Source: Microtetraspora sp. NBRC 16547 (GTDB lineage: Bacteria > Actinomycetota > Actinomycetes > Streptosporangiales > Streptosporangiaceae). From it: a stretch of DNA of 64,000 bases. A model generated the notes under the pieces. It was not told the DNA's origin. It ran no database searches and saw only the letters and a list, made by a program, of their open reading frames with translations. The translations under genes were made by a program, and so were the position numbers. This document shows, piece after piece, positions 5,921 to 39,507 of the stretch (its first letter is position 1; each line of letters begins with the position of its first letter). The stretch is from the NCBI RefSeq assembly GCF_030268965.1, contig NZ_BSSE01000026.1, positions 1-64,000 of the forward strand. Direction: 5' to 3'.

Positions 5921-5965
5921 ACGCCCAAGGTAGTGTTGTGATCCATGCCTGGCCAGGTATCAAAC

Positions 5966-6469: not shown

Positions 6470-6479
6470 GCCGCCTCCC

Positions 6480-6500
6480 AGGGCACATCTAGGGCACACG
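6480..6500 (+). repeat. tandem AGGGCAC pair, copy 2
   Basis: AGGGCAC at 6480 and 6491, followed by ACG, as at 375. Similarity continues weakly downstream (GCGCG, then purine-rich sequence ending in GAGAAG or GAGGAA). It starts 10 bp after the stop of the 98-aa gene and 85 bp before the IS701 target site. Confidence 0.45.
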
Positions 6501-6569
6501 CGCGTAAGAAACGCTGTGAAACGACGAGGAACACTGCACAGCTAAAAGGCAGCCCAGAAGCATGGCAGT

Positions 6570-8048: not shown

Positions 8049-8333
8049 GCAGTGACATAGTCGCAGACCGGAAGCTCAGCGAGCTTACTTCCAGTGGAAG
8101 TGAGCCGACGGCACGTCCGCCGGGCGTGACGGACGGTGACCGCCCGCGTCCGGCGGCGGCGATGGTGCGGAACGGCGTGCCAGACGAGGACGGCCCCTAC
8201 GAGTGCGAGCCGCGATGGCCGCCCGACGGCGTCGAGTGCGGGCTCCGCCGAGTGTGAGCCGTACGGCCAGGAGACCGGGAGCCAGGAGTCCCGGCGGCCG
8301 GGGGAGGCGGGCCGGGCGGTCAGGAGTCCGGGC

Positions 8334-8834: not shown

Positions 8835-9069
8835 CGTTCAGCAGGGACGAGGTCGAGTGCGAGTTCCGGTCACAGCCGCGTCTCTTACCCGGATATGGCG
8901 ACCGATGCCGGTCTTTGCCGATCTTTTCGCAGTTCGTCGGCATCGCGTGTGCGGCATGTCGCCCCGGAGGCCGCCCCGGCGGTGGCGAGCGCATGGTGGC
9001 GGACAGGGAGGGCATGCCCTGAAGAAGGGGGAATGCCGGTTCCCCTAACGGGACGGGAGGACACTTTCG

Positions 9070-9441
9070 ATGTCCGTCGCACTGAACCACACCATCGTGC
9101 CCAGCAGGGACAAGCGCGCGTCGGCGGAGTTCCTGGCCGGGATCCTGGGGCTGAAGGCGGCCTCGCAGTGGGGTCCGTTCGTGCCGATCCAGACGGCCAA
9201 CGGCGTCACGCTCGACTACATGGACGTCGACGAGGTCCAGAAGAACCACTACTGCTTCATCGTCACCGAGCCCGAGTTCGACGTGATCTTCGCGCGGATC
9301 AGGGAACGGGGGCTCGACTTCTGGGCGGATCCGCACCACGAGAAGCCCGGGGAGATCAACCATCTGTACGGCGGGCGCGGGGTCTACTTCAACGATCCCG
9401 ACGGCCACAACATGGAGGTCATCACCCAGCCGTACGCCTGA
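9070..9441 (+). CDS. VOC-family (glyoxalase-like) protein
   Basis: A 123-residue protein with the beta-alpha-beta-beta-beta pattern of the vicinal oxygen chelate fold. LNHTIVPSRD at the N-terminus supplies a likely metal-binding His, and GVYFNDPDGHNMEVITQPY at the C-terminus carries the typical DPDGHxxE signature with a likely metal-binding Glu. GGGAGG lies about 10 bases upstream of the ATG. The substrate cannot be told from the sequence. It precedes an acetyltransferase gene by 73 bp and may share its transcript. Confidence 0.88.
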   Translation: MSVALNHTIVPSRDKRASAEFLAGILGLKAASQWGPFVPIQTANGVTLDYMDVDEVQKNHYCFIVTEPEFDVIFARIRERGLDFWADPHHEKPGEINHLYGGRGVYFNDPDGHNMEVITQPYA

Positions 9442-9514
9442 CCGGCCGAGCCGCCGAGCCGTCCACCAATCCAGGATTAAGTCGCCGCCAAGTCGCGGAC
9501 GGTACAAACGCGGG

Positions 9515-10501
9515 GTGAACGGATACGACATCAGGCGGCCCACCGAGGGCGACGCGGAGGCGATCCACGAGCTGGTCGCCGAGCACGACACCGAGGTCCT
9601 CGGCAAGCCCGACGCCACCCTGGAGGACGTCGCCGAGGTACTCGGCGAGCTGGACCTCGCCACGGACGGTTGGCTGGTGCACCAGGGCGACCGGCTCGCG
9701 GGCTGGGGGTGGGCCTGCCCCAAGGGGACGAGCGACAACGTCGACATCGACGTCCAGGCCCGGGACGAGGCCGTCGTCGCCTGGCTCTGGGAGCGGGTCC
9801 TGGAGCGGGCAGTGGAGATCGCTCGCGACCTCGGCCACGCCCAGGCGCGGGTGGACATCGGCATCTACCGCGAAGACGTCGCGCTCCAGGCGGCGGCCAA
9901 GGAGCGCGGGCTCGCCGTCGCCACCAGCTTCCACCGCATGCGCATCGACAACGGTGATGACCACGGCGGCCACGCGGGCGCGGCGGAGCCGGAGACTCCC
10001 CCCGGCGTGATCGTGGAGAGCGGCGAGCCCGACCAGGAGCGGCTTTGTACGGCGCACCGGATCCAGCAGGAGGGCTTCGCCCGGCACTTCGGGTTCGTGC
10101 CGAAGACCTTCGAGGAGTGGGTCTCCGACATGGAGGCGTCCAGTGCGAGCGACTGGAGCCAGCTCCTGATCGCCCGTGTGGACGGCGAGCCGGCCGCCAT
10201 GTTGCTCGGGACCAACCACTTCGTGTCCGACGAGGACTGCGGCTACGTGCGCACCCTCGCCGTACTGCCCGCCTTCCGCGGCAGGGGGCTCGGGAAACTG
10301 CTGCTTCGCACGGCGTTCGCCGCGGACGCGCGGCGCGGCCGGACCGGCACGATCCTGCATGTGGACTCGAACAACGTCACGCCGGCTCTCGACCTCTATC
10401 TCTCCACGGGGATGCGCCAGGTGCTCGCCATCGACGCTTGGCGGGCCGACCTGCCGACCGGGCTGCCGACCGGCCCGGCGACGTCGGACGAAGCCGATTA
10501 G
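9515..10501 (+). CDS. tandem-GNAT acetyltransferase
   Basis: A 328-residue protein with two GNAT domains. The N-terminal domain (about 1-150) starts YDIRRPTEGDAEAIHELV and is degenerate in its acetyl-CoA loop. The C-terminal domain (about 165-315) has YVRTLAVLPAFRGRGLGKLL, a good Q/RxxGxG/A acetyl-CoA binding motif, followed by HVDSNNVTPALDLYLSTGM. The layout resembles mycothiol synthase and other tandem GNATs, but the family is too broad to assign MshD. The start is GTG 9515; the ribosome binding site is weak (GCGGG). Confidence 0.85.
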   Translation: MNGYDIRRPTEGDAEAIHELVAEHDTEVLGKPDATLEDVAEVLGELDLATDGWLVHQGDRLAGWGWACPKGTSDNVDIDVQARDEAVVAWLWERVLERAVEIARDLGHAQARVDIGIYREDVALQAAAKERGLAVATSFHRMRIDNGDDHGGHAGAAEPETPPGVIVESGEPDQERLCTAHRIQQEGFARHFGFVPKTFEEWVSDMEASSASDWSQLLIARVDGEPAAMLLGTNHFVSDEDCGYVRTLAVLPAFRGRGLGKLLLRTAFAADARRGRTGTILHVDSNNVTPALDLYLSTGMRQVLAIDAWRADLPTGLPTGPATSDEAD

Positions 10502-23816: not shown

Positions 23817-23855
23817 GTAAACGTTTACAGACATGGTCCTGCCGTAAACGTTTAC
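23817..23855. promoter_or_regulatory. two perfect LacI-family operators
   Basis: GTAAACGTTTAC occurs at 23817-23828 and 23844-23855, each a perfect 12-bp palindrome with the central CG typical of LacI-family sites. They are 27 bp apart and end 22 bp before the LacI-type gene. They likely mediate autorepression of the regulator and repression of the whole operon downstream. Confidence 0.9.
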
Positions 23856-23877
23856 ACCAGCACTGACGAGGTGACTT

Positions 23878-24987
23878 GTGGCCGAAGGCCCCACGATCAA
23901 CACGATCGCGCGGCGTGCCGGGGTGTCGATCGCCTCTGTCTCGCGCGTACTCAACGGACTGCCGACGCGCGAGGAGACGGTCCGCCGCGTGCTGAGCGCG
24001 GCCGAGGAGCTCGGCTACGTCCCCAACTCCGTGGCGCGCTCGCTCAAGAACCGGCGTACGAATCAGGTCGCGTTCGCCATGGCCGACATCGGCAACCCCG
24101 TCTATCTCGCGATGGTGCGGGAGATCCAGCCGGTGCTCCGCGCCGCGGGCTACCGCCTCCTGCTGCACTCGACCGACGCCGACGTGGCCGACGAGCTGGA
24201 CGTGCTGCGCGGGCTCGGCGAGCGGTACGTCGACGGCCTGATCATGAGCCCGCTGCGGGTCACCGACGAGCATCTCCGCGCGCTCGCCGCCGCCCGTGCC
24301 CCCGTCGTCGTCATCGGCTCGGTGCCCGAGGGGACCGGTGTCGACAACGTGCGGGCCGACTCGCGCACCGGCGTGCGGCTCGCGCTCGACCACCTGCACG
24401 GGCTCGGCCGGCGCCGCATCGCGTTCGTCAACGGCCCGACCGACACCGTTCCCGGCGCGGCGCGGGCCGCCGCCTACCGTGAGGCCCTCGCCGCTCTCGG
24501 CCTGCCGTACGACGAGGACCTCGTCGAGGTGGGCGACTTCTACCGCGCCGACGGGGCCGCGGCCGTGCAGGCGCTGCTGGACCGCGCCGCCGACGTGGAC
24601 GCGATCATGTGCGCCAACGACCTGATCGCGCTCGGCGCGTTGGACGTGCTGCGCCGCGCCGGGCGGCGGGTGCCCGAGGACGTGGCCGTCGTCGGCATGG
24701 ACGACACCTACCTGGCCGCGGTCGCCTGGCCCGCGCTGACCAGCGTGTCGCTCGGCTCGGCCCGCCGCGGCCGCGCCGCCGCCGAACTGTTGCTCGACCG
24801 GCTGGAGAACGGCCAGCGGGAGCCGCGCGTCGTCACCGTCGAGCCGCGCCTGGCCGTACGCGCGTCGACCGTGGGCGTGCGGGCGGCCGAGACCGTCGAG
24901 TCCGGCGGCTCCTCCTGGGCCGCCGGGGAAATCGGGGCCGCCGGCGACGGCGGAAGCACCGGGGACGGCGGGGAGGGGAGCCGATGA
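23878..24987 (+). CDS. LacI-family regulator of the ARG operon
   Basis: A 369-residue repressor. The N-terminus has the LacI helix-turn-helix (TINTIARRAGVSIASVSRVLNG) and hinge region (YVPNSVARSLKNRRTNQ), followed by the periplasmic-binding-like ligand domain (VAFAMADIGNPVYLAMVREIQPVL). The GTG has GAGGTGAC just upstream. The last 35 residues are a Gly/Ser-rich tail. The stop overlaps the next ATG. Two perfect operators lie upstream, so it controls itself and the following importer and glycohydrolase genes; the inducer is probably the imported ribosyl compound or its product. Confidence 0.93.
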   Translation: MAEGPTINTIARRAGVSIASVSRVLNGLPTREETVRRVLSAAEELGYVPNSVARSLKNRRTNQVAFAMADIGNPVYLAMVREIQPVLRAAGYRLLLHSTDADVADELDVLRGLGERYVDGLIMSPLRVTDEHLRALAAARAPVVVIGSVPEGTGVDNVRADSRTGVRLALDHLHGLGRRRIAFVNGPTDTVPGAARAAAYREALAALGLPYDEDLVEVGDFYRADGAAAVQALLDRAADVDAIMCANDLIALGALDVLRRAGRRVPEDVAVVGMDDTYLAAVAWPALTSVSLGSARRGRAAAELLLDRLENGQREPRVVTVEPRLAVRASTVGVRAAETVESGGSSWAAGEIGAAGDGGSTGDGGEGSR

Positions 24988-25901
24988 CTCTCACGGACGT
25001 CCGGCCCGCCGGGACCCGGCGCGGCCCGGCCCGGAACCGGTCCCGGAATCGGGCACAGAACCGCGAGACGCTCGTGCTACTGCTCCCGGCCCTGATCCCC
25101 GTGCTGGTGCTCAGCGTCGGACCGCTCGTCTACGGCATCATGCTCGCGTTCACCGACGCCAGGTCGGGGCGGAACACCGAGACGTCGTTCGTCGGTCTGG
25201 CGAACTTCGGCGAGCTGCTCACCGACGGCGACTTCTGGGAGTCGTTCCGCATCGGCATGGTCTGGGCCGTGTCGGTCACCGTGTTGCAGTTCCTCGCGTC
25301 GCTCGGGCTCGCCCTGCTGCTCGACCAGGACCTGCGGCTGCGCGGGTTCGCCCGGGTGCTCGCGCTGGTGCCGTGGGCGATGCCGCCCGTGGTCATCGGC
25401 CTGATGTGGCGGCTCGTCTACCACCCGGACGCGGGCATACTCAACGCCGTCCTCGGCACCGACGTGGACTGGCTCAACGACTTCTCCGTCGCGCTCCCCG
25501 CCGTGATCGTCGTGGGGGTCTGGATGGGCATGCCGCAGACGACGGTCGTCCTGCTGGCCGGGCTGCAGAACGTCCCCAAGGAGCTGCACGAGGCGGCCGG
25601 CGTCGACGGCGCGGGCGTGTGGCGGCGCTTCTGGAACGTCACCCTGCCGCAGCTCCGGCCGGTGATCGTGGCGATCACCTCGCTCGACTTCGTCTGGAAC
25701 ATCAACCAGTTCAGCCTGGTCTACGTCCTGACACAGGGCGGCCCGGGCGGGCGGACACGGCTGCCGATGCTGTTCGCGTACGAGGAGGCCTTCCGCTACG
25801 GCTTCTTCGGGTACGCGGCGACCCTCGGCGTCGCGATCACGATCGTCGTCCTCGCCGTGCTCGGCGTGTACCTGTGGCGGCAGATGCGGGAGGCCGACTG
25901 A
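24984..25901 (+). CDS. sugar-type ABC permease (MalF class)
   Basis: A 305-residue permease. After a basic N-terminus rich in Arg and Asn it has six helices, starting VLLLPALIPVLVLSVGPLVYGIML. The EAA loop reads KELHEAAGVDGAGVWRRFWNVTLPQL. The ATG overlaps the regulator stop. It pairs with the next gene to form a channel. No ATPase gene is present in the operon, so a shared MsiK-type ATPase encoded elsewhere is likely, as usual in actinobacteria. Confidence 0.93.
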   Translation: MTLTDVRPAGTRRGPARNRSRNRAQNRETLVLLLPALIPVLVLSVGPLVYGIMLAFTDARSGRNTETSFVGLANFGELLTDGDFWESFRIGMVWAVSVTVLQFLASLGLALLLDQDLRLRGFARVLALVPWAMPPVVIGLMWRLVYHPDAGILNAVLGTDVDWLNDFSVALPAVIVVGVWMGMPQTTVVLLAGLQNVPKELHEAAGVDGAGVWRRFWNVTLPQLRPVIVAITSLDFVWNINQFSLVYVLTQGGPGGRTRLPMLFAYEEAFRYGFFGYAATLGVAITIVVLAVLGVYLWRQMREAD

Positions 25902-26719
25902 TGCGCACCGCCCTGAAGTACCTCGCCCTGCTGGGCTACCTCGTCTTCCTGGCGTTCCCACTCGTCTGGCTGCTGTCCACGGCGCTCAAGACGCCGCAGG
26001 AGATGGCGAACCTGGATCCGACCTGGATCCCGCGCCACCCGACCCTGGCTAACTTCGCCGACGCCTTCGGTGAGCAGGACATCGTGGGCAGCGCCGCGCG
26101 CAGCCTGGTCGTCGCGCTGGCGAGCGCCGTGATCACCGTGCTCGTGGCCCTTCCCGCGGCGTACGCGCTGGCGCGGTACCGAAGCACGCTCAACAAGATC
26201 GCGATCGGGTGGGTGCTGGTCAGCCAGGTCTTCCCGGTCATCCTGATCATCATCCCGCTGTTCATGGTGCTGCGCCGGCTGGAGCTGGTGAACACGCTTC
26301 CCGGCCTCGCCCTGGTGCACGTCACCTTCACCCTGCCGTTCGCCCTCTGGATGCTCCAGGGCTACGTGCGCGCCGTGCCGCGCGAGCTGGAGGAGGCGGC
26401 GTCCGTGGACGGGGCGGGCCGGCTCCGGGCGCTCGCCAGCGTCGTCGCGCCGCTCCTCGTCCCCGGCGTCGTGGCCACTCTGCTGTTCGCGTTCATCTCG
26501 TCCTGGAACGAGTTCCTGTTCGCGCTCGTGGTCCTCAAGGACCCCGAGGTGGCCACCCTGCCGCTGACGCTGGTGAAGTTCACCGGCCCGGAGGGCGTCG
26601 TACGGCTGGGCCCGCTCGCCGCCGCCTCGCTGCTGGCGACGATCCCGAGTCTGGTGTTCTTCGCGATCATCCAACGGCGGCTGAGATCCGGCCTGATGGC
26701 CGGCGCCGTCAAGGGGTAG
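25901..26719 (+). CDS. sugar-type ABC permease (MalG class)
   Basis: A 272-residue permease with six helices, opening YLALLGYLVFLAFPLVWLLSTALK. The EAA loop is RAVPRELEEAASVDGAGRLRALASVVAPLL and FAFISSWNEFLFALVVL follows, all typical of MalG-class proteins. Start and preceding stop share one base (TGATG). It forms the second half of the importer channel. Confidence 0.94.
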   Translation: MRTALKYLALLGYLVFLAFPLVWLLSTALKTPQEMANLDPTWIPRHPTLANFADAFGEQDIVGSAARSLVVALASAVITVLVALPAAYALARYRSTLNKIAIGWVLVSQVFPVILIIIPLFMVLRRLELVNTLPGLALVHVTFTLPFALWMLQGYVRAVPRELEEAASVDGAGRLRALASVVAPLLVPGVVATLLFAFISSWNEFLFALVVLKDPEVATLPLTLVKFTGPEGVVRLGPLAAASLLATIPSLVFFAIIQRRLRSGLMAGAVKG

Positions 26720-26776
26720 CCCGAAATGCCCCGAATCTTCCGAGTTTCCCCGCGTTCCCCCCGATAGGAGAGTCAC

Positions 26777-28081
26777 ATGAGGCGTTGGAGTGCCGCGCTC
26801 GCGGTCGCGGCCGTCGTTCTGGCCGCCGGATGTTCGAGCGGGGGAGGCGACGGCGACGGCGCCGCTTCCGGCGGGCCGGTGAAGCTGCGGTTCCTCAGCC
26901 TCGCCTGGCAGAAGGAGTCGATCGCCGCCAACAAGCAGCTCGTCGACGAGTGGAACAAGGCCAACCCCGAGATCCAGGTCGAGTACGTCCAGGGGAGCTG
27001 GGACAACGTCAACGACCAGCTCGTCACGTCGTTCGAGGCGGGCGACCCGCCGGACGTGATCCACGACGACTCCCCGGCCCTGTCGGGCTTCGCCTCGCGC
27101 GGCTTCCTGCTCGACCTGTCGAGCTCACTGCCGGCCGAGCTGAAGAGCGACATCCCGCAGCCCGCGTGGGACACGGTCACCTTCGCCGACGGCAAGGGCG
27201 GCCAGGGCGTGTACGGCGTGCCGTTCCTGCAGGAGTCCCAGGTCATCTACGCCAACAAGAAGCTGCTCGACGCGTCCGGGGTCCGGATCCCGACCTCTGA
27301 CGCCCCCTGGACGTGGGACGAGTTCGCCGCGGCCGCCAAGAAGATGACCAAGGGCGGCGCGTACGGCGTGGCCTGGCCGATGAAGTCGCCGGTCAACAAG
27401 GTGCTCACCCTCGGGCTCAACTTCGGCGGCACCTTCTTCACGACGGAGGGCGGCAAGACCACGGTCAAGGTCGGCCCCGAGGAGCGCGAGGTCCTGCAGC
27501 GCATCCACGACCAGCTCTACAAGGACAAGTCGGCCGACCCGTCGGCGCTCGGCATGGGCACCGCCGACCCGCTGCCCGGCTTCTTCGCCGGGAAGTACGC
27601 GATGGTGCCCGCCGGCGTCTACCTGCGCCAGCAGGTGGCCGAGCAGGCGCCCGACGGCTTCGAGTGGGTCACGCTGCCGCCGCTGAAGGGCGCCACCGCC
27701 CAGCAGGGCGCCACCTCGCAGACGCTGTCGGTCGCCACGGACAGCAAGCACCCGCAGGAGGCGGTGAAGTTCATCTCCTTCTTCCTGAACGGCCCGAACC
27801 AGGCCAAGCTCGCCAAGGGCGACTGGCTGCTCCCGACGAGCACGGCCGCCGCGGCCGACCCCGCCATGACCACCAAGGAGAACTTCTGGGACGTCGCCAC
27901 CGCGTCGGCCAAGAACCTCGTGGTCGCGCCGTACCTCAAGGTCAACGGCTACGACGAGTGGAAGAGCAAGGTGGGCGCGCCGACGCTCCAGGAGTACTTC
28001 GCCGACAAGATCAGCCTGGACGACGCGGCGAGGAAGCTCGTCGAGGAGGGCGACAAGGTGCTGGAGCGGTACGCGCGGTGA
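26777..28081 (+). CDS. sugar-type ABC binding lipoprotein
   Basis: A 434-residue family-1 solute-binding protein. The signal peptide ends with the lipobox VLAAGCSSG (Cys near residue 19). The mature part has the usual PPDVIHDDSPALSGFASRGFLLDLS region and a GVPFLQESQVIYANKKLLDASG segment. The 57-bp gap after the permease holds GATAGGAGAGTC, a good ribosome binding site. It sets the specificity of the importer; the neighbouring ribosyl-bond hydrolases and ribokinase suggest a ribosylated ligand. The next gene starts in its stop codon. Confidence 0.93.
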   Translation: MRRWSAALAVAAVVLAAGCSSGGGDGDGAASGGPVKLRFLSLAWQKESIAANKQLVDEWNKANPEIQVEYVQGSWDNVNDQLVTSFEAGDPPDVIHDDSPALSGFASRGFLLDLSSSLPAELKSDIPQPAWDTVTFADGKGGQGVYGVPFLQESQVIYANKKLLDASGVRIPTSDAPWTWDEFAAAAKKMTKGGAYGVAWPMKSPVNKVLTLGLNFGGTFFTTEGGKTTVKVGPEEREVLQRIHDQLYKDKSADPSALGMGTADPLPGFFAGKYAMVPAGVYLRQQVAEQAPDGFEWVTLPPLKGATAQQGATSQTLSVATDSKHPQEAVKFISFFLNGPNQAKLAKGDWLLPTSTAAAADPAMTTKENFWDVATASAKNLVVAPYLKVNGYDEWKSKVGAPTLQEYFADKISLDDAARKLVEEGDKVLERYAR

Positions 28082-29148
28082 CCGCTCCACTCGCGTCACT
28101 CTCGCCACTCCCGCCGTTGTCGCCGCGGGATCGCGCCCGGGGGTGCCTGCTCGGCCTGGCGGCCGGCGACGCCCTCGGCGCGCCCGCGGAGAACCTGACT
28201 CCCGAGGCCATCGCGGCGCGCTGGGGCGTGCTCGACGAGATCGAGGGCGGCGGCACGGACGACACCGAGTACAGCCTGTTCGCCGCGTCCCTCCTGCTCC
28301 GCCACGGTCACGCGCTGACCTCGCAGGACGTGGTGGAGGCATGGCGCACCGAGATCGTGGCCCGGGCCGACGGGCCGATGCGCGGGGCGGGATTCTCCGA
28401 ACTCGGCACCGTCCAGGCGCTCCGCCGCGGGCTCCGGCCGCCGCTGACCGGCCGGTGGCACCCGCACGGCTGGTCCGACGGACTGGCCATGCGGGCCGCG
28501 CCGTACGGGATCTTCGCGGCGGGCGACCCGGACGAGGCGGCGCGGCTGGCCGAGGTCGACGGGCGGGTCAGCCACAGCGGCGAGGGCGTCCTCGGCGGCC
28601 GCGCGGTCGCGGCGGCGGTGGCGGTCGCGATGACCGGCGCCGAGCCGGGCGAGGTGATCGAGGCGGGACTGCGGGCGATCCCCGCGGACTCGTGGACCGC
28701 GCGCGCCGTCGGGAAGGCCATCGAGATCGCGGACGCCGGGAGGGAGACGACCTCGCGCGAGGAGTTCGCGCGCGGGCTCCACGACGCCGTCGTGGTGAAG
28801 CACTATCCGTGGACCGATCTGGCCCCGGAGGCGGTCGCGCTCGCCTTCTCCGCCTACCTCAGGGGCGGCGGAGAGGTCGAGGCGGCCGTGGTGACGGCGG
28901 CCAACCTCGGCAGGGACGCCGACACCACGGCCGCGATCGCGGGCGCCCTGGCGGGCGCGGGCACCGGCGAGGCGGGCGTGCCCGCGCGCTGGGCCCGCCG
29001 GATCGGGGCGGTCACCGGCCGCTGCCTTCCCGTGGTCGCCGGACGGCACGTCCTGGACGCCGCCGACCGACTCGTGGACCGACTCACGGACCGACTCGCC
29101 GAGCGAACCAGCGACCGGCCCGCAGACCGGCTCGTGGAAGGGATGTAG
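28078..29148 (+). CDS. ADP-ribosylglycohydrolase family protein 1
   Basis: A 356-residue DraG/ARH-type protein starting at GTG 28078, overlapping the preceding stop. It has GCLLGLAAGDALGAPAE (23-39), the first acidic motif GGTDDTEYS with TDDT at 60-63 and the C-terminal LGRDADTTAAIAG motif with DADT at 280-283. Together these would bind the two metal ions that cleave a ribosyl glycosidic bond. Metal-ligand positions are complete, so it is probably active. The C-terminus is a 12-bp-repeat tail (DRLVDRLTDRL). Family members release ADP-ribose or ribose from N- or O-ribosyl linkages; the small-molecule substrate here is inferred from context. Confidence 0.92.
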   Translation: MTAPLASLSPLPPLSPRDRARGCLLGLAAGDALGAPAENLTPEAIAARWGVLDEIEGGGTDDTEYSLFAASLLLRHGHALTSQDVVEAWRTEIVARADGPMRGAGFSELGTVQALRRGLRPPLTGRWHPHGWSDGLAMRAAPYGIFAAGDPDEAARLAEVDGRVSHSGEGVLGGRAVAAAVAVAMTGAEPGEVIEAGLRAIPADSWTARAVGKAIEIADAGRETTSREEFARGLHDAVVVKHYPWTDLAPEAVALAFSAYLRGGGEVEAAVVTAANLGRDADTTAAIAGALAGAGTGEAGVPARWARRIGAVTGRCLPVVAGRHVLDAADRLVDRLTDRLAERTSDRPADRLVEGM

Positions 29149-29154
29149 AGAAAC

Positions 29155-30339
29155 ATGTCATCGGGGGGCGGCGGCGGCACGCCGCCGCAGGAGGATCGCG
29201 TTCTGGGCGCCTTCATCGGCCTCGCCATCGGGGACGCCGCCGGCTGGCCGGCCGCGCGTCACCGGTCGCTGCGGCTGGCGCCGTGGAGCAGGCGGCTGCA
29301 CCGCGAGCTGGACGCGTTCGCCGAGGAACGCCAGGTGACCACGCTGCCGGTGCCGTTCGCGCTGAACCAGCCGGTCGAGCCGCTGGCGCTGGGGCCGTCC
29401 GACGACGCCGAATGGCTCGCCTGGACGGCGGCGACGATCCACGACGACCGCGCCGAGGCGTTCGGACGGCTCGCCGAGCGCGACGACCTGCGCGCCCGGA
29501 TCTCCGTCTGGTCCGCGCTGGACAACCTCGCCGCCGGCCTGGGACCGCCCGCGAGTGGTCACGACAACCCGCACTTCTTCGACGACGCGGCGGCCGTACG
29601 GGCGGTGGCGTTCGGCGCGGCCGGGATGGACCCGGTCGCCGACGCTCAGGTCACCAACTCCGGGGACGGCGTCCTCGGGGCCGTGGCCGTCGCGACGGCG
29701 GTCGGCGCGCTGGTGAGGGGTGCGCCGATGCGGGAGGCGGTCGACGCGGCGGTCGGCGCGCTTCCGGAGGACACCGCGATCGGGCACGCCGCGCGTACGG
29801 CCGTGGCGGTGGCGCGGGAGCACGGCGACCCGTTCGCCGCCGTGCCCGCTCTCGACGCGGCGCTGCTCGACCACGTCTACAGCTACGGAGTGGCGGCCGC
29901 GGAGACCGTACCGATCGCCCTGGCCCTCGCCGACGTGGCGATGTCGCCAGGAGAGCCACCGGAAGAGTCGCTGGGAGAGCCGGCCGGAGGGGCGGCCGGA
30001 AAGGCCGGAGCCTCGGCGCTCGGGGCCGGGGGAGCGTTCGGCGCCGCGGTGTCGGCGGCGGCCTGCCTGGCGTCGGTCGCGGACTCGGCGCCCGCGCTCA
30101 CCGGCGCGCTCGCCGGGGCGTGCGCGGGACACGCGGCGCTGCCGGAGGGATGGCGGACGGCGGCGCGCACGCTGACGGGCTGCTGCCTGCCCGAGCTGGC
30201 GGGCGCGGACCTGCTCGCCGTCGCGCGGGCGCTGGTGGCCGGCCACGGGACGGGAAGCACACGCGACTCGACAGGTATTTCGATACAGATGGCGACACAG
30301 ATGGCGACACAGATGGCGACACGGAGGGGAACGGCATGA
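29155..30339 (+). CDS. ADP-ribosylglycohydrolase family protein 2, degenerate site
   Basis: A 394-residue paralogue, six bases downstream. The N-terminal GAFIGLAIGDAAGWPAA motif is present. The first acidic motif is reduced to PSDDAEWLAW (DDAE at 83-86). At the C-terminus the DxDS/T motif is missing: the equivalent region reads ALGAGGAFGAAVSAAACLAS. Only part of the metal site remains, so catalysis by the usual mechanism is unlikely and it may be a regulatory or structural partner. The last 20 residues are a QMAT repeat from a 12-bp tandem repeat. The frame is intact, so the gene is not an obvious pseudogene. Confidence 0.85.
   Translation: MSSGGGGGTPPQEDRVLGAFIGLAIGDAAGWPAARHRSLRLAPWSRRLHRELDAFAEERQVTTLPVPFALNQPVEPLALGPSDDAEWLAWTAATIHDDRAEAFGRLAERDDLRARISVWSALDNLAAGLGPPASGHDNPHFFDDAAAVRAVAFGAAGMDPVADAQVTNSGDGVLGAVAVATAVGALVRGAPMREAVDAAVGALPEDTAIGHAARTAVAVAREHGDPFAAVPALDAALLDHVYSYGVAAAETVPIALALADVAMSPGEPPEESLGEPAGGAAGKAGASALGAGGAFGAAVSAAACLASVADSAPALTGALAGACAGHAALPEGWRTAARTLTGCCLPELAGADLLAVARALVAGHGTGSTRDSTGISIQMATQMATQMATRRGTA
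30285..30320 (+). repeat. 12-bp tandem repeat in ARG 2
   Basis: Three exact copies of ACAGATGGCGAC encode the C-terminal QMAT repeats. A unit of 12 bp preserves the frame, so copy number can vary without frameshift. Confidence 0.85.
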
Positions 30340-31487
30340 CGCCGCTTGAGGACAGGGCCGTCGGCTGCGTGGCCGGGGCGGCGGTCGGGGACGCGCTCGG
30401 CGGAGCCACCGAGGGATGGACGCCCGAGCAGATCCGGGCGCGCTACGGAGGCCACGTCGAGGGCGTCGTCCCGCCGTACTTCGCGGACTGGCGCAACGCC
30501 CGGCCCATCGCGCCGTACCACAAGGGCGACGGCCACGTGACCGACGACACGCTGATGACCCACGCGCTGATCCGCGTGTACGAGCGGGCGGGCGGGCACC
30601 TGGACGCCTACGCCGCCGCCGAGCACCTCGTGCCGGAGATGATGGGCGAGAAGCGCTGGATCCCCGAGCTCGAAACCGAGGCGCTGCCGCTGCACCGGGT
30701 CTTCCTGGCCGAGAAGTGGCTGGTCCTGCGGTTGCACTACGGCCACATCGACCCGCGCGAGGCCGGCGTCGGCAACATTGTCAACTGCGGCGCCGCGATG
30801 TACATGGCGCCCGTGGGCGTCGTCAACGCGGGCGACCCCGACGGCGCCTACGCCGAGGCGATCGACCTCGCCGGTGCGCACCAGTCCAGCTACGGCCGGG
30901 AGGCGGCCGGGGTCCTCGCCGCCGCGGTGGCCGAGGCGATGCGGCCTGGCGCCACGCCCGACTCGGTGGTCGCGACGTGCCTGCGGCTCGCGCGCGACGG
31001 CACGAAGGCGGCCATCGACGCGGTGTGCTCGGCGGCGCGGGACCTCGGCCACTGGGAGGGGTCCTTCGAGACGCTGCGCGCCGCCATGCGGCCCTACGAC
31101 ACGGTGGCCGACACCTACCGCGACCAGGGGCTCGGCGCCCGCCGCCCGAGCCGCGTGCACAGCATCGAGGAGCTGCCGCTCGCCCTCGCGTTCCTGCTGA
31201 TCGCCAAGGGGGACTACCGCGAGACCGTGCTCGGCGGGGTGAACTACGGACGGGACGCCGACTCGATCGCGTCGATGGGCGGCGCGGTCGCCGGTGCGCT
31301 CGGCGGGCGGTCCGCCGTACCGGCCGGGTGGATCGAGGAGGTGTCGGCGGCCAGCAGGACCGACCTCGTCGCGCCCGGCCTCGCCCTGGCCGAGGTGGCG
31401 GGCAAAGTGCGCGCCGCCGACGCGGAACGCCGCCGCGCCGCCGACGCCGCGTTCGCCGAGCTGCTCGCCGCCGGGGACGCCTCGTGA
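30336..31487 (+). CDS. ADP-ribosylglycohydrolase family protein 3
   Basis: A 383-residue DraG/ARH-type protein whose ATG overlaps the previous stop. It has GCVAGAAVGDALGGATEG (10-27), GHVTDDTLMTHAL with TDDT at 69-72 and NYGRDADSIASMGG with DADS at 307-310, so all metal-binding motifs are present. The closing half contains IVNCGAAMYMAPVG and a long helical segment. It is more distant from paralogue 1 than a simple tandem duplicate would be, so the two probably act on different substrates or bonds. Confidence 0.93.
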   Translation: MTPLEDRAVGCVAGAAVGDALGGATEGWTPEQIRARYGGHVEGVVPPYFADWRNARPIAPYHKGDGHVTDDTLMTHALIRVYERAGGHLDAYAAAEHLVPEMMGEKRWIPELETEALPLHRVFLAEKWLVLRLHYGHIDPREAGVGNIVNCGAAMYMAPVGVVNAGDPDGAYAEAIDLAGAHQSSYGREAAGVLAAAVAEAMRPGATPDSVVATCLRLARDGTKAAIDAVCSAARDLGHWEGSFETLRAAMRPYDTVADTYRDQGLGARRPSRVHSIEELPLALAFLLIAKGDYRETVLGGVNYGRDADSIASMGGAVAGALGGRSAVPAGWIEEVSAASRTDLVAPGLALAEVAGKVRAADAERRRAADAAFAELLAAGDAS

Positions 31488-32893
31488 TGCGGCTCACCTG
31501 GGTCCAGCCGGAGGACCTCGTCGGTCACGAGCTGCGCCAGGCCGCCGAGGACGGCAGGTGGGACCTGCCGGAGGCACGGGAGATCGCCGCGCGCTGGCAC
31601 GCCGCCGGAGGGCACGCGGCGCCGCCCCGCGCCGGCGCCTCCCCGGAGGCCCCTCCCGTACGGCTGCGCCGACTGGCGGAGGAGCTGCTCGACGAACTGG
31701 CGGCGATCCCCTCGCCGCTGCCCGAGCCGTCCGGCTGGGACGAGATCGTCGCCGCCTGCCCCGGCTGGCCGGCCGGGGAACGGCGCGGGGAGGGACCCGG
31801 ATTGCGGGAACCGGGACGCCCGGCCCGGCCCGCCGACCCCGCCCGGGTGCTCGGCGCGTGGCAGGGCCGGGCCGCCGGATGCGTGCTCGGCAAGCCGGTG
31901 GAGAAGATCCCGCGCGAGGGCATCAGGGAGATCGCCGAGGCGACGGGCAACTGGCCGATCCGCGGCTGGTTCACCGCCAGGGGACTGCCGCCGGAGACCG
32001 CCCGCAGGTGGCCGTGGAACCGCCGCAGCGCGGTCAACAGCCTCGCGGAGAACATCGACGGGATCCCCGAGGACGACGACCTCAACTTCGCGCTGCTCGC
32101 GCTGGCCGTCCTGGAGCGGTACGGCAGGGGCTTCACCACCGGCGACGTCGCGCAGATGTGGCTCGACGAGCTGCCCGGTGGCCGGGTGTTCACCGCGGAG
32201 CGGGTGGCCTATCGCAACCTCCTGATGGGCATCGAGCCGGAGGCCGCGGAGATGCGTGGCCGCCGCGGCCGCACGACCGCCACCTACCGCAACCCGTTCC
32301 GCGAATGGATCGGCGCCCTCATCCGGGCCGACGTGTACGGCTGGGCGAACCCGGGGGACCCGGCGACGGCGGCCGAGTTCGCCTGGCGGGACGCCCGGCT
32401 CAGCCACACGGCGAACGGCGTCTACGGCGCGATGTTCACGGCCGCCATGTGCGCGCGGTCCCTGGACGCCTCGTCCGCCGTCGAGGTGGTCGAGGCGGGA
32501 TTGTCCGTGGTTCCCGCCGGATCCCGGCTCGCCGCCGCCGTACGGGACGCCGTGGACGTGGCGGGCGCGGAGCCGGACTTCGAACGGGTCGTGGACCACC
32601 TCCACGACCGGCACGGCCACCTGCACTGGGTCCACACGATCAACAACGCCGCCCTGATCGCGGCGGCGCTGGTCCACGGACGGGGAGACTTCACCGCCTC
32701 GATCGCGGGCGCGGTCGCGGGCGGCTGGGACACCGACTCGGCGGGCGCGACCGTCGGATCGATCGTCGGAGCGCTGAACGGGGGCGTTCCCGGGCAGTGG
32801 TCCATGAAGGACCGCCTGACCAGCAGCGTCACCGGATTCGACGGCATCGCCCTGGGGGAGCTCGCCCGGCGCACCCGGTTGATGGCAGGGTAA
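31487..32893 (+). CDS. ADP-ribosylglycohydrolase family protein 4
   Basis: A 468-residue protein starting in the previous stop (TGATG). An N-terminal extension of about 115 residues (MRLTWVQPEDLVGHELRQA) precedes the hydrolase domain. The domain opens GAWQGRAAGCVLGKPVEKI, where the usual GDxxG is LGKP. The acidic motif is GIPEDDDLNFALLAL (DDD at 196-198) and the C-terminal motif is AGGWDTDSAGATVGS (DTDS at 415-418). These features mark a separate ARH subgroup. Metal ligands appear complete. It is 34 bp ahead of the ribokinase gene. Confidence 0.92.
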   Translation: MRLTWVQPEDLVGHELRQAAEDGRWDLPEAREIAARWHAAGGHAAPPRAGASPEAPPVRLRRLAEELLDELAAIPSPLPEPSGWDEIVAACPGWPAGERRGEGPGLREPGRPARPADPARVLGAWQGRAAGCVLGKPVEKIPREGIREIAEATGNWPIRGWFTARGLPPETARRWPWNRRSAVNSLAENIDGIPEDDDLNFALLALAVLERYGRGFTTGDVAQMWLDELPGGRVFTAERVAYRNLLMGIEPEAAEMRGRRGRTTATYRNPFREWIGALIRADVYGWANPGDPATAAEFAWRDARLSHTANGVYGAMFTAAMCARSLDASSAVEVVEAGLSVVPAGSRLAAAVRDAVDVAGAEPDFERVVDHLHDRHGHLHWVHTINNAALIAAALVHGRGDFTASIAGAVAGGWDTDSAGATVGSIVGALNGGVPGQWSMKDRLTSSVTGFDGIALGELARRTRLMAG

Positions 32894-32927
32894 GCGGGAT
32901 AAAGGTGACGATCCTGGAGGAAACATC

Positions 32928-33812
32928 GTGATCTCGGTGTTCGGCAGCGCCAACATGGACCTGGTGGCTTACGTGCCGTCCGCTCCCAAGCTGGGCGAGA
33001 CCGTCACGGGACGGGCGTTCCGCACCGTGCCCGGCGGAAAGGGTGCAAACCAGGCGGTCGCGGCCGCCCGGGCGGGGGCCAAGGTGGCGTTCATCGGAGC
33101 CGTCGGCGACGACGCCTTCGGGCCGGCCCTGCGTGGTGCGCTGTTCGAGTCGGGCGTCGACACGAGCAGGCTGCGGGTCGTGCCGGGAGCGTCCGGGATC
33201 GCGCACATCGTCGTGGAGGACAGCGGCGGCAACTCGATCATCGTCGTGCCCGGCGCCAACGGAACCGTCACCGGCTGCGCGGCCGAGGACATCGAGCTGA
33301 TCGCCCGCTCGCGCGCGCTCCTGCTGCAGCTCGAACTGCCCCTCGACGCGGTCGTCGAGGGCGCCCGCGCGGCCCGCGCCGCGGGCGTGCCCGTGGTCCT
33401 GACGCCCGCCCCCGTGGTGGAGCTGCCGGACGAGCTGCTCGACGCCGTGGACCTGATCGTGCCCAACGAGCACGAGGCCGCCGCGATCACCGGCGCCGCC
33501 GACCCCGACGACGCGCTCAAGGCCCTGCTCGACCGCGTGCCCGAGGCTGTGATCACCCTCGGGTCCAAGGGCGCGCTGTACGGCTCGCGCGCCGGGGCCC
33601 GGCTGCTGGTGCCCGCCGTACCCGTCGAGGCGGTGGACACCACGGCGGCCGGCGACACGTTCGTCGGCGCGCTCGCGGTCGCGAGGTCCGAGGGCCGCAG
33701 CCCCGCGGACGCGCTGCGCTTCGCCTCGACGGCAGCGGCGCTGTCCGTCCAGCGAGAGGGTGCGAGCACGTCCATGCCGAGCCGCGCCGAGATCGACGCC
33801 GCCCTGTCGTGA
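32928..33812 (+). CDS. rbsK: ribokinase (PfkB family)
   Basis: A 294-residue sugar kinase. The N-terminal signature reads GSANMDLVAYVPSAPKLGET and GGKGANQAVAAARAG. The C-terminal signature is DTTAAGDTFVGAL (237-249) with the catalytic base Asp243. GANQAVAAARLGA-type motifs of this kind favour ribokinase over other PfkB kinases. GTG 32928 follows GGAGGAAAC. It would convert ribose set free by the glycohydrolases into ribose 5-phosphate for the pentose phosphate pathway. It is the last gene of the operon, followed by a strong hairpin. Confidence 0.9.
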   Translation: MISVFGSANMDLVAYVPSAPKLGETVTGRAFRTVPGGKGANQAVAAARAGAKVAFIGAVGDDAFGPALRGALFESGVDTSRLRVVPGASGIAHIVVEDSGGNSIIVVPGANGTVTGCAAEDIELIARSRALLLQLELPLDAVVEGARAARAAGVPVVLTPAPVVELPDELLDAVDLIVPNEHEAAAITGAADPDDALKALLDRVPEAVITLGSKGALYGSRAGARLLVPAVPVEAVDTTAAGDTFVGALAVARSEGRSPADALRFASTAAALSVQREGASTSMPSRAEIDAALS

Positions 33813-33875
33813 GCTCGGCCGGCCGCTCTGCTGTGGGCTCTGCCGGCCGCTCTGTGTCAGCGCTGCCGTGACCGG

Positions 33876-33916
33876 AGGCCCGCGTGCTCGTCCACCGCGG
33901 ACGAGCACGCGGGCCT
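33876..33916 (+). terminator. 18-bp stem terminator after rbsK
   Basis: AGGCCCGCGTGCTCGTCC (33876-33893), a 5-base loop and the exact complement at 33899-33916. It ends the LacI-regulated operon and sits 25 bp before the ribosome binding site of the CoA-transferase gene. No U-tract follows. Confidence 0.8.
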
Positions 33917-33949: not shown

Positions 33950-35125
33950 ATGACCGCCCCCGCCACGCCGCCACTGTCGGGCGTCCGCGTGCTGGACCTT
34001 GCGACACTGTTCGCCGGGCCGATGGCCGCGATGCTGCTCGGCGACTACGGCGCGGACGTGATCAAGGTCGAGCACCCACGGAAACCCGACCCCTCGCGCG
34101 GCCACGGGCCGGACGGGCTGTGGTGGAAGATGCTCGGCCGCAACAAGCGGACGATCACCCTCGACCTGTCCGCGCCGGACGGCCAGGACCTCCTGGTCGA
34201 GCTGGCACGGGACGCCGACGTGGTCATCGAGAACTTCCGCCCCGGCACGCTGGAGCGGTGGAACCTGTCCTACGACCGGCTCGGCGCGGCCAACCCGCGG
34301 CTCGTGCTCGCCCGCGTGACCGGGTTCGGGCAGTTCGGCCCGTACGCCCGCAGACCGGGGTTCGGCACGCTGGCCGAGGCCATGAGCGGGTTCGCGGCCA
34401 TGACCGGGGAGCCGGACGGCCCGCCGACGCTGCCGCCGTTCGGCCTGGCGGACGGCATCTGCGCGCTCGCCACGGCGTTCGCGGTCATGACGGCGCTCAG
34501 ATCGGGCCGAGGGCAGGTCGTCGACCTGTCGATCATCGAGCCGATCCTGAGCGTGCTCGGCGCGCAACCCACCATCTACGACCGGCTCGGCGTCGTGCCG
34601 CCGCGCACGGGGAACCGGTCCGTCAACAACGCGCCGCGCAACACCTACCGGTGCGCGGACGGCTCGTGGGTGGCCGTCTCCACCTCGGCGCAGAACATCG
34701 CCGAGCGCGTCATGCGGCTGGTCGGCCGTCCCGAGTACATCGCCGAACCGTGGTTCGCCACCGGCGCCGGGCGGGTCCGGCACGCCGACGAGCTGGACGC
34801 GGCGGTGGCCGCCTGGGTGGCCCGCCACACCCGTGACGAGGTCCTCACGGCCTTCGAGGAGGCGCAGGCCGCGGTCGCCCCGGTCTACGACGTGCGGGAC
34901 GTCATGGCCGACCCCCAGCTCCGGGCGCTCGACGCGATCACCACGGTGGAGGACCCCGAGCTGGGGCCGCTGCGCATGCAGAACGTCATGTTCCGGCTGT
35001 CGGGGACGCCCGGCGAGATCCGCTGGACCGGCCGCCCACACGGGGCCGACACCGAGGAGGTGCTGACCTCGCTCGGCCTGCCGCCCGGCCGGATCGCCGC
35101 GCTCCGCGAGAAAGGCGTCGTGTGA
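33950..35125 (+). CDS. CaiB/BaiF-type (family III) CoA transferase
   Basis: A 391-residue protein. The start ATG 33950 follows GGAGG. It opens LSGVRVLDLATLFAGPMAAMLLGDYGADVIKVEHP, the family III hallmark, with ENFRPGTLERWNL and RVTGFGQFGPYARRPGFGTLAEAMSG. The catalytic Asp is probably in GLADGICALATA. Such enzymes move CoA between carboxylic acids. It is coupled to a CitE-like lyase gene by a stop/start overlap. Together they could activate and cleave a hydroxy-dicarboxylic acid such as citramalate or malate; the substrate is inference. Confidence 0.93.
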   Translation: MTAPATPPLSGVRVLDLATLFAGPMAAMLLGDYGADVIKVEHPRKPDPSRGHGPDGLWWKMLGRNKRTITLDLSAPDGQDLLVELARDADVVIENFRPGTLERWNLSYDRLGAANPRLVLARVTGFGQFGPYARRPGFGTLAEAMSGFAAMTGEPDGPPTLPPFGLADGICALATAFAVMTALRSGRGQVVDLSIIEPILSVLGAQPTIYDRLGVVPPRTGNRSVNNAPRNTYRCADGSWVAVSTSAQNIAERVMRLVGRPEYIAEPWFATGAGRVRHADELDAAVAAWVARHTRDEVLTAFEEAQAAVAPVYDVRDVMADPQLRALDAITTVEDPELGPLRMQNVMFRLSGTPGEIRWTGRPHGADTEEVLTSLGLPPGRIAALREKGVV

Positions 35126-35181
35126 CGGATCGTCGTGTGCCGGATCATCGTGTGCCGGATCATCGTGTGCCGGATCATCGT
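35122..35181 (+). repeat. 15-bp tandem repeat, four copies
   Basis: GTGCCGGATCATCGT occurs three times exactly (35137-35181), after one variant copy (35122-35136). It begins at the end of the CoA-transferase gene and lies before the lyase ribosome binding site. If translated from GTG 35122 it would give a VPDH repeat, but a better start lies at 35266. Confidence 0.85.
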
Positions 35182-35265
35182 GTGAGAGATCACAACCCCG
35201 GCGAGGTTGACCCGGCGTGTCAGGGGGATCATCAAGCGGCAGAAAACGCGACGAGGAGTGACGCA

Positions 35266-36180
35266 GTGCCGCAGAACGTGCCTCCGGGCGGACCCCGGCC
35301 AGTGCCCGGAACCGGACCCAGAGCCGGGTTCCCGATCATGCCGCTGACCTGGTTGTACGTGCCCGCAGACCGGCCCGACCGGGTCGCCAAGGCGCTGGCC
35401 ACGGACGCCGACGTCGTCATCGTCGATCTGGAGGACGCGGTCGCGGCCGAGAACAAGGGCCGGGCCAGGGCCGAGGCCGTCGCGCTGCTCGCCACCCCGC
35501 AGCCCCGGGTCCAGATCCGCGTCAACGACGTGCGCACGCCGTACGGTCAGGCCGACATGCACGCGCTGGCCTCCCTCGTCACCGGGACATGCGGCATCCG
35601 CGTGCCCAAAGTGGAGTCCGCGGCGGAGGTGAGGGAGATCGCGGCGGCGGTGCCCGGCGTGCCCCTGCATCCGCTGCTCGAATCCGCGCTCGGGCTGGAA
35701 CGCGCCTTCGAGATCGCCGCCGCGTCCGAGGCGGTGGCGAGCATCGGGCTGGGCGAGGCCGACCTGCGCGCCGATCTCGGTGTCAGCGCCGACGGCGGGC
35801 TGGCCTGGGCGCGCTCCCGCGTCGTGGTCGCCGCCCGGGCGGCCGGGTTGCCCGCGCCCGCCCAGTCGGTCTACCCGGACATCCGGGACCTCGCCGGGCT
35901 GGCCGCGTCCTGTCTGGAGGGCCGAGCGGCGGGGTTCCGCGGCCGGGCGGCGGTCCACCCGGCCCAGCTTCCGGTCATCGTGAACGCGTACCGCCCGACC
36001 GAGGCCGAGATCGCCGCCGCCCACGAGGTGATCGCGGCCGCCGGCCAGGGCGCGGTCGCCCTGCCCGACGGCCGGTTCGTGGACGAGGCCATCGTGCGGC
36101 AGGCCCGCGGCGTCCTTGAGCTCTTCCACAGGGAGCCGCCGGGTCCGCACTGGGGCCCGCCGGTCACCGCCACGCCGTGA
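35266..36180 (+). CDS. HpcH/HpaI (CitE-like) CoA-ester lyase
   Basis: A 304-residue protein; GTG 35266 has AGGAG seven bases upstream. The domain starts PLTWLYVPADRPDRVAKALATDADVVIVDLEDAVA, the usual CitE opening, with RVNDVRTPYGQAD and IRVPKVESAAEV. The metal-binding Glu and Asp fit PLLESALGLE and LGEADLRADLG. QSVYPDIRDL and AVHPAQLPVI complete the pattern. It probably cleaves a hydroxyacyl-CoA into acetyl-CoA and an oxo acid. The frame extends upstream through a tandem repeat; a start at ATG 35338 is also possible. Confidence 0.9.
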   Translation: MPQNVPPGGPRPVPGTGPRAGFPIMPLTWLYVPADRPDRVAKALATDADVVIVDLEDAVAAENKGRARAEAVALLATPQPRVQIRVNDVRTPYGQADMHALASLVTGTCGIRVPKVESAAEVREIAAAVPGVPLHPLLESALGLERAFEIAAASEAVASIGLGEADLRADLGVSADGGLAWARSRVVVAARAAGLPAPAQSVYPDIRDLAGLAASCLEGRAAGFRGRAAVHPAQLPVIVNAYRPTEAEIAAAHEVIAAAGQGAVALPDGRFVDEAIVRQARGVLELFHREPPGPHWGPPVTATP

Positions 36181-38442: not shown

Positions 38443-39507
38443 GTGGACGCCGCCGCCGACCCCGCCGCCGTAAGCCGGACTCCTGAGGCGCGTACGGAGG
38501 GGAGCGCCGACGAACCCCACGGGCAGGGGCCGCTGACTCGGGTCAGGATCGCGAGCGCGCCGGTCAACTTCGGCGTGTACACGGCGGAGGGCGCGCCGAT
38601 CGCCGCCGACGAGATGCTCGCCACGATGCGCGACGCCGGTTATGCCGGAACGGACTCCGGCCCCATCGGCTACCTCGGGACCGGAGCGGAGCTGTCCGAC
38701 CGGCTCGCACGGCACGGCCTCGGCCTGGCGGGCGGCTGGGTGGACCTCCGGTATGGCGACGCCGCCGGGTTCGAGGAGGACCTGGACGGGCTGGACGCGG
38801 CCCTGGACGTCTTCGCCGGAGTTCCCGTGGACGATCCCCGGTTCGCGCCCCGGCCGACGCTCGCCTGCCCGGCGAACCCGGCGAGATTCGCCCGGCCGGG
38901 CGAACCGGTTGACCCGGCGCTGCGGCTGAGCGCGGAGGAGTGGCCGGGGTTCGCCGTCCGGGTGCTTCGCGCCGCCGCCCTGTGCCGGGACCGGGGCCTG
39001 GAACCCGTCTTCCACCACCACCTCGGCACCGACGTGGAGACCGTCGAGGAGATCGAGCGGCTGCTCGGACTCACCGATGTGTCCCTCTGCCTGGACACCG
39101 GGCACCTGTGGCTCGCGGGCGGCGACCCGGTGGCCGCGATCGGGCGCTGGGCGGGCCGGATCCGTCAGGTGCACGTCAAGGACGCCTCCCGCGACACGCT
39201 CGCCCGGGTCCGCGCGGCGGACGGCGACCTGTGGGAGGCCGTCCGCCGCGGCGTCTTCCCACCGCTCGGCGCGGGCGACCTCGACATCGAGGCCGTGGTC
39301 CGCGCGCTCGGGCGGATCGGTTACGAGGGATGGGTCGTCGTCGAGCAGGACGTCGCCGGTACCGGCCGGGGTCTCGGAGCGGTCGCCGCCGACCAGCGGG
39401 CCAACCTGGACCGGCTGGCCCTGGCGGGGCTGATCGGCGGCCCGTCTGCCGTTCCACCGGCCCCACCGGCGCCACCGGCGCCGCGAGGGCGCAGGTACGG
39501 AGGCTGA
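38443..39507 (+). CDS. sugar phosphate isomerase/epimerase-type TIM barrel protein
   Basis: A 354-residue protein with a low-complexity N-terminal 25 residues and a xylose-isomerase-like barrel. RIASAPVNFGVYTAEG opens the domain. Likely metal ligands lie in EPVFHHHLGTDVET, LDTGHLWLAGGDP, RQVHVKDASRD and WVVVEQDVAG. This pattern fits the IolE/inosose dehydratase and related epimerase group. The C-terminus is a Pro/Ala-rich tail. It lies downstream of the decayed GntR gene and may once have been under its control. The exact substrate is unknown. Confidence 0.85.
   Translation: MDAAADPAAVSRTPEARTEGSADEPHGQGPLTRVRIASAPVNFGVYTAEGAPIAADEMLATMRDAGYAGTDSGPIGYLGTGAELSDRLARHGLGLAGGWVDLRYGDAAGFEEDLDGLDAALDVFAGVPVDDPRFAPRPTLACPANPARFARPGEPVDPALRLSAEEWPGFAVRVLRAAALCRDRGLEPVFHHHLGTDVETVEEIERLLGLTDVSLCLDTGHLWLAGGDPVAAIGRWAGRIRQVHVKDASRDTLARVRAADGDLWEAVRRGVFPPLGAGDLDIEAVVRALGRIGYEGWVVVEQDVAGTGRGLGAVAADQRANLDRLALAGLIGGPSAVPPAPPAPPAPRGRRYGG

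Follow-up and report, generated by a model that had tools for sequence, protein, structure and literature searches.

The ADP-ribosylglycohydrolase (ARH) superfamily is known for enzymes that take ADP-ribose off proteins; its characterised enzymes act on ribosyl bonds, and the residues of their Glu, T-D-D and D-x-D-T/S motifs have metal-binding roles. Here we describe an operon of Microtetraspora sp. NBRC 16547 (contig NZ_BSSE01000026.1, whose first 64,000 nucleotides were analysed and are called the window) in which four ARH genes, numbered ARH1 to ARH4 in gene order, are combined with genes for a LacI-type regulator, a CUT1 importer, a ribokinase and two coenzyme A (CoA) enzymes. The operon is real and conserved, a variant of the sugar-uptake operon in which ARH-superfamily proteins would be the hydrolases inside the cell.

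Like the window, Streptomyces coelicolor has a block of four ARH genes (SCO2028-2031); unlike in the window, no LacI or transporter gene lies alongside. The block adjoins gltBD-like and lgt/trpA-like genes, as does that of Streptomyces violaceoruber (L057; neighbours named by eye), and by position and numbering rather than by sequence SCO2028-2033 would be the cassette described here, with SCO2028-2031 as its ARH genes. The numbering agrees with trpX being SCO2038, and the SCO numbers of gltB and lgt, as we take them to be, fit the same placement. In the literature, SCO2028-2031 are among eight uncharacterised DraG/ARH homologues listed (PMC9411070), SCO2028-2030 appear in a list of DraG-like hydrolases of the species (PMC5087735), and the many such hydrolases are read as indicating that ADP-ribosylation metabolism is lively in this species (PMC5087735, PMC9411070). 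On one substrate, alpha-ADP-ribosylated uracil, activity of SCO2028 and SCO2030 was not detectable (PMC13036486).

The plasmid operon of Ensifer sp. PDNC004 (L145), with the order LacI-F-G-SBP-ARH-ARH-UgpC-CoA transferase-CoA ester lyase (F and G, MalF- and MalG-type permeases; SBP, solute-binding protein), has the same gene order as the window, the identity being 42% for ARH3, 47% for CaiB, 34% for CitE and 31% for the ARH4 domain. It differs in using another branch of CUT1 permeases, in having its own ATPase gene, in lacking ARH1 and ARH2, and in about 400 additional C-terminal residues of its ARH4-type protein. Escherichia coli yegTUV is a single repressed operon that likewise unites a transporter, an ARH protein (YegU) and a sugar kinase (YegV); it has been linked in print to ADP-glucose and glycogen, but its transporter is a nucleoside-type symporter, its ARH protein is single and CoA enzymes are missing. 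Itaconate degradation (RipC/Ccl) shares with the window the arrangement of a RipC-like lyase after a CoA transferase, although the window's lyase stays below the equivalog cut-off and no itaconyl-CoA hydratase is among the conserved parts. The known structures of DraG, ARH3 and MJ1187 have the fold of the ARH2 and ARH4 models and the metal motifs of ARH1 and ARH3 from the window, but at 12-22% identity in fold alignments and in another operon context. An earlier note on this DNA had suggested that the system may be undescribed; the block is in fact widespread in Streptomyces and its genes appear in print, while a treatment of it as a sugar operon was not found among open-licence PMC papers, and to that extent the suggestion stands.

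Layout, conservation and co-inheritance of the operon

From the operators to rbsK the operon occupies positions 23817-33812, with all genes on the plus strand. Two perfect palindromes, GTAAACGTTTAC, at 23817-23828 and 23844-23855 precede the genes for the LacI-family regulator (23878-24987; PF00356, PF13377), the MalF/UgpA-type permease (24984-25901), the MalG/GlcU-type permease (25901-26719; both PF00528), the solute-binding lipoprotein (26777-28081; PF01547, 142.5 bits), ARH1 (28078-29148), ARH2 (29155-30339), ARH3 (30336-31487), ARH4 (31484-32893) and RbsK (32928-33812), after which come caiB and citE. The top NCBIfam matches of the regulator (RbsR, 193.2 bits against a cut-off of 382) and of the two permeases (UgpA and MalF for one, GlcU and MalG for the other) fell below their cut-offs. 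Overlaps of 4, 1, 4, 4 and 4 bp were found at five of the eight junctions from lacI to rbsK, the gaps being 57 bp (malG/SBP), 6 bp (ARH1/ARH2) and 34 bp (ARH4/rbsK), and co-transcription of the genes appears probable from the overlaps and the gene order. Sequence and Pfam thus bear out the gene content that the earlier note had listed, from the two operators to rbsK, and its remark that most junctions overlap. With a palindrome before lacI, two permeases and a lipoprotein, the operon has the makeup of a LacI-controlled CUT1 import unit.

Related loci were collected by an ARH2 profile scan of named genomes; the set consists of the best 80 of 299 confirmed, a biased sample, and its layouts were made by tblastn. 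The parts present stood in the conserved order in all 80 loci, and 76 had all four ARH genes; the exceptions were three loci cut by contig ends (L068, L074, L089) and one without ARH3 in the block (L039). On the left side, 74 loci have over 6 kb between their left end and ARH2; LacI-F-G-SBP was present in 35 of them, and none of the four in the other 39. On the right side, RbsK was found in 63 and CaiB plus CitE in 53 of the 75 loci with more than 7.5 kb of sequence. In L050 and L057, the two loci from Streptomyces that were read closely, gltBD-like genes lie on one side of the cassette and lgt/trpA-like genes on the other (named by eye); to judge by the lengths of open reading frames, most LacI-less Streptomyces loci have these left neighbours too.

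The operators are conserved upstream of lacI in relatives. Allowing up to two mismatches, the window contained two sites, whereas 100 shuffles averaged 0.17 and three of them had two or more; in the whole genome the two GTAAACGTTTAC copies were the only perfect sites, and one additional site had a single mismatch. Where a LacI relative was linked and the upstream sequence was long enough, an operator-like site (up to two mismatches) was present at 51 of 52 loci, the miss being L118; this count includes the window and counts four contigs twice, which leaves 47 of 48 distinct. Among random segments of the same loci, 24 of 2060 carried such a site, segments overlapping real sites having been left in, and none was found upstream of ARH1 in the 40 cassettes without LacI. 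Additional operator-like copies were seen about 300-380 bp upstream of lacI in L105, L113 and L117. In some genomes of group f19 a gene for a secreted PF00756 esterase lies divergently upstream of lacI (L101:1784-3913, L113:15312-17552, L103:16035-18161; assignment made on these three proteins), and a relative of it at L141:319-1245 is also divergent from a LacI operon.

The strongest evidence that the importer and the ARH cassette serve one pathway came from co-inheritance. Among 296 genomes of the class, 48 had a match to the ARH3 profile at E 1e-30 and 42 to the SBP at E 1e-25. All 41 genomes with a strong SBP match (E 1.4e-78 or better) were among the 48 with ARH3, and the single weak match (G281) fell outside them. 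A hypergeometric value for this overlap disregards the kinship of the genomes and is not to be taken as a probability. The seven ARH3 genomes without an SBP match were all of group f18, that is, Streptomyces-type genomes as assigned by neighbourhood. In 14 of the 21 f18 genomes having ARH3, the SBP gene lay on a separate contig or at a distance of over 3 Mb from ARH3. In the eight of these 14 unlinked regions that were read (L135-L140, L142, L143), both permease genes were next to that of the SBP, and no LacI or ARH relative was within about 7 kb. These distributions support the joint inheritance of SBP and ARH genes even when unlinked, and because the tie outlasts the loss of linkage, a common pathway is indicated. 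SCO6086-6091, a guess for the S. coelicolor transporter, gave no literature match. The PDB relatives of the SBP are mostly sugar-binding proteins, the closest being Lmo0181 (5f7v, E 2.6e-24). The LacI-controlled catabolic import unit of the earlier note is thus backed by comparison, by the conserved operators and by the co-inheritance of SBP and ARH.

Four clades of ARH proteins

All four ARH proteins passed the PF03747 gathering cut-off of 26.2 bits (199.1, 70.7, 169.2 and 158.8 bits for ARH1 to ARH4) and account for four of the seven PF03747 matches in the genome, the others being two on contig C36 and one on C7. Against the DraG equivalog TIGR02662 (cut-off 337.05), ARH1 and ARH3 scored only 76.8 and 53.2 bits, and ARH2 and ARH4 gave no match. 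Metal motifs were compared in alignments of 89, 95, 95 and 95 rows (ARH1 to ARH4) from 100 loci, window and a few duplicate rows included, the remaining rows having been dropped as broken, short or absent. ARH1 has the canonical binuclear site, with E38, D61, D62, D280 and D282 in every one of the 89 rows and T60 replaced by Ser in one, and so has ARH3 (E26, TDDT, D307 and D309 in 95 of 95). In ARH4, which carries an N-terminal extension of about 120 residues, E140, D197, D198, D416, D418 and S419 were present in all 95 rows, while the Thr of TDD was Glu in 92, giving an EDDD variant of the TDDT motif.

ARH2 departs from this pattern. In all 95 rows (91 distinct) its Glu position was occupied by A, G, V, R, S, T or L and the first Asp of D-x-D by V, L, T, A or Q, while D83, D84 and D310 were kept throughout; since the altered motifs are themselves conserved, a decaying gene was ruled out. 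Its AlphaFold model (mean pLDDT 76.0) has an ARH-like fold resembling those of DraG, ARH3 and MJ1187, and that of ARH4 (mean pLDDT 85.3) has DraG, MJ1187 and ARH3 as its nearest PDB folds. To judge from these residues, ARH2 may not be a hydrolase at all and is perhaps a non-catalytic or altered partner. The idea in the earlier note of four ARH enzymes acting in sequence is a conjecture, since canonical metal ligands have been lost from ARH2.

A quick tree of 82 rows, which had no outgroup from other phyla and contained several long branches, placed the four proteins in separate clades (SH-aLRT 88, 100, 100 and 99 for ARH1 to ARH4), ARH1 and ARH2 being sisters (93). A recent tandem duplication was thereby ruled out; as far as sequences tell, these are four old clades in fixed order and not a recent expansion. 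PADLOC gave no match for any of the four proteins, and a role in anti-phage defence was rejected on that ground.

The core of the system seems to consist of ARH3 and ARH4, with the ARH1/ARH2 pair as an added module, since one locus (L122, genome G262) has the former without the latter and the order differs in another. L122 reads LacI-F-G-SBP-ARH3-ARH4, a protein with an FGE-sulfatase domain, CaiB, CitE; no RbsK was found within the 16 kb read, in which the contig stops 0.4 kb past CitE, so that RbsK may lie outside. In L106 (G168), CaiB-CitE stand in front, followed by ARH3-ARH4-ARH1-ARH2. A further island (L104, G134:C1:6280000-6299900) contains two LacI-like genes, RbsK-like kinases, a CUT1 importer, ARH1/2/4-like genes, a 651-residue ARH protein, an alpha-amylase-family protein and a BPD_transp_2 permease.

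Ribokinase, CoA enzymes and Hyphomicrobiales plasmids

The assignment of RbsK as a ribokinase, already made in the earlier note, passed a curated cut-off (TIGR02152, 314.8 against 299.65 bits). Its relative in L010 also exceeded it (314.5), while those in L050 (299.5) and L144 (279.4) fell below, and the next-best match within the genome was 34% identical. The note had placed the end of the operon at a hairpin, which does exist at 33876-33916 on the plus strand as a perfect 18-bp stem with a 5-nt loop (-42.1 kcal/mol for a 50-base stretch), and had overlooked the genes at 33950-36180. The hairpin lacks a T-run and is absent from the list of the terminator scan. Strong hairpins were also present in L010 and L011; among the rbsK-caiB spacers of seven loci, measured between match ends, a strong short hairpin was found in two Microtetraspora, a 215-bp folded spacer in L012 and spacers of 15-51 bp in the other four. 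As only the two Microtetraspora loci have a short spacer with a hairpin of this kind, its role as a conserved operon end was unsupported. It is possibly an attenuator, terminator or processing site, and the transcription unit probably extends past it to CaiB and the lyase.

The first of these two is a CaiB/BaiF (family III) CoA-transferase (33950-35125, plus strand; PF02515, 403 bits), which is a neighbour in relatives too, and the second a CitE/RipC-like CoA-ester lyase (35122-36180, plus strand, start codon uncertain) with PDB matches to 9nzb, 8khl and 3qll. The lyase reached 178.1 bits on the itaconate/citramalyl-CoA lyase model RipC/Ccl (NF038242), below its cut-off of 375. In Streptomyces, Streptosporangiaceae and rhizobia, both occur together with the ARH genes. 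In several genomes a gene beside caiB encodes a protein of about 630 residues (L101:14548-16461, L122:2408-4276), of which the C-terminal FGE-sulfatase domain was the sole match and the N-terminal half matched no database entry; in f19 genomes the gene sits between rbsK and caiB. Downstream of the operon, the window has a gene for a xylose-isomerase-like TIM-barrel protein (38443-39504), and in L010 one similar by eye directly follows citE. Farther away are genes for an AmiS/UreI family transporter (53294-53905, minus strand) and a TctC-type tricarboxylate receptor (54696-55652, plus strand).

A search of plasmid records with ARH3 gave 24 matches, and 14 regions were examined: 12 Hyphomicrobiales loci (ARH3 orthologues, 42-51% identical) and two distant ones. 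LacI-F-G-SBP-ARH3 was present in all 12, an ARH4-type protein in 11, CaiB in seven and CitE in six; RbsK and CaiB were combined in none. The rbsK gene lies behind the operon in L144, divergently in front of it in L154, and in L148 is a 195-bp fragment. Plasmid and window proteins were 42% (ARH3), 47% (CaiB) and 40% (RbsK) identical, the permeases 23-27%, and the window's SBP did not match that of the plasmids at E 1e-4. By these comparisons, the two share a metabolic core and differ in the importer.

A proposed ribosyl conjugate and the alternatives

A catabolic role of the operon is very likely, because the CUT1 importer, LacI, RbsK and CoA enzymes occur together. The reading we prefer, at about even chances and chiefly on the actinobacterial evidence, is that an imported ribosyl conjugate is dismantled inside the cell and its acid part processed through a CoA-ester lyase. 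The LacI-type repressor would control CUT1 uptake of a soluble carbohydrate conjugate containing ribose and a carboxylic acid, whose glycosidic bond or bonds would be cut intracellularly by the ARH metal enzymes (ARH3/ARH4 as core, ARH1/ARH2 as added module). RbsK would convert the released ribose to ribose 5-phosphate; the acid would be activated by the CaiB-type CoA-transferase and then split by the RipC/CitE-like lyase, for example as a citramalyl-, malyl- or HMG-type CoA ester, to acetyl-CoA and an oxo acid or acetoacetate. Ribose is proposed as a product because RbsK is present and the ARH family is known for ribosyl cleavage, and an acid because CaiB and CitE are. The identity of the acid is a guess, as both enzymes score below every curated cut-off listed, the first of several points that weigh against this reading. 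RbsK is absent from 12 of the 75 loci with enough downstream sequence (one of them, L052, retains a 36-codon rbsK remnant), and a complete RbsK adjoins the plasmid operon in only two of the 12 loci. Neither RbsK nor CaiB is near in L037, L039 and L064. An SBP relative at E 1e-25 is missing from seven of the 21 f18 genomes with ARH3. An ABC ATPase has 152 matches in the genome, which makes a shared MsiK-like protein, 61% identical to rhizobial UgpC, no more than the best candidate for the importer's ATPase. A sugar operon in the same genome (L008, G000:C36:4000-22000, at 1356-9788) joins a pair of ARH1 and ARH2 genes, with 63 and 58% identity to those of the window, to a BadF-type kinase, an RpiR regulator, a SIS_2 protein and a CUT1 importer, with no ribokinase, ARH3 or ARH4 nearby; and distant ARH genes adjoin those of sugar-acid dehydratases, namely galactonate dehydratase on a Microvirga plasmid (L157) and mandelate-racemase-family genes on a Halalkalicoccus plasmid (L156), which suggests additional sugar-acid roles. 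The sugar, then, need not be ribose everywhere.

These last observations also speak for carbohydrate catabolism of another kind, in which the ARH proteins would be glycosidases (or lactonases) on a non-riboside furanoside or a sugar acid, with RbsK and the acid module optional. L122, with CaiB and CitE but no RbsK before its nearby contig end, and the Nocardiopsidaceae loci L037 and L064, with RbsK, CaiB and CitE all absent nearby, fit it as well; the presence of RbsK in most loci with enough downstream sequence, if beside few plasmid operons, and the ribosyl bonds cut by characterised ARH enzymes do not, and we consider it rather unlikely. Salvage of extracellular ADP-ribose, NAD or nucleosides, close to some of the options in the earlier note, would explain an ARH fold next to a ribokinase and has a parallel in the nucleoside-type transporter, ARH and sugar kinase of yegTUV. 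We hold it to be improbable: the conserved parts include no Nudix, phosphatase or nucleobase enzyme, the SBP is nearest to sugar binders, and CaiB and CitE point to an acid moiety, for which ADP-ribose or plain nucleosides would not account. That the ARH proteins reverse ADP-ribosylation of proteins or nucleic acids, their place in a sugar operon being due to regulation or accident, agrees with how the S. coelicolor proteins are listed in PMC9411070 and PMC5087735. It seems very improbable, since in two phyla the ARH genes are linked with genes for an importer, a kinase and CoA enzymes, they are co-inherited with an unlinked SBP, PADLOC gave no match, and activity of SCO2028 and SCO2030 was not detectable on the one substrate reported (PMC13036486).

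Beyond the ribosyl conjugate that we favour for this operon, we tentatively propose that this ARH branch, including four of the eight listed DraG-like proteins of S. coelicolor, comprises nutritional metal-dependent glycoside hydrolases, which would digest an undescribed ribosylated hydroxy-acid of soil or roots taken up by actinomycetes and rhizobia. The operon context offers another, testable function for that half of the S. coelicolor list and a candidate new glycosidase activity for the large ARH superfamily. It points to a nutrient that would serve soil bacteria in two phyla far apart, and the relatives in Streptomyces and on rhizobial plasmids suggest that some so-called ADP-ribosyl hydrolases may digest a ribose-containing nutrient.

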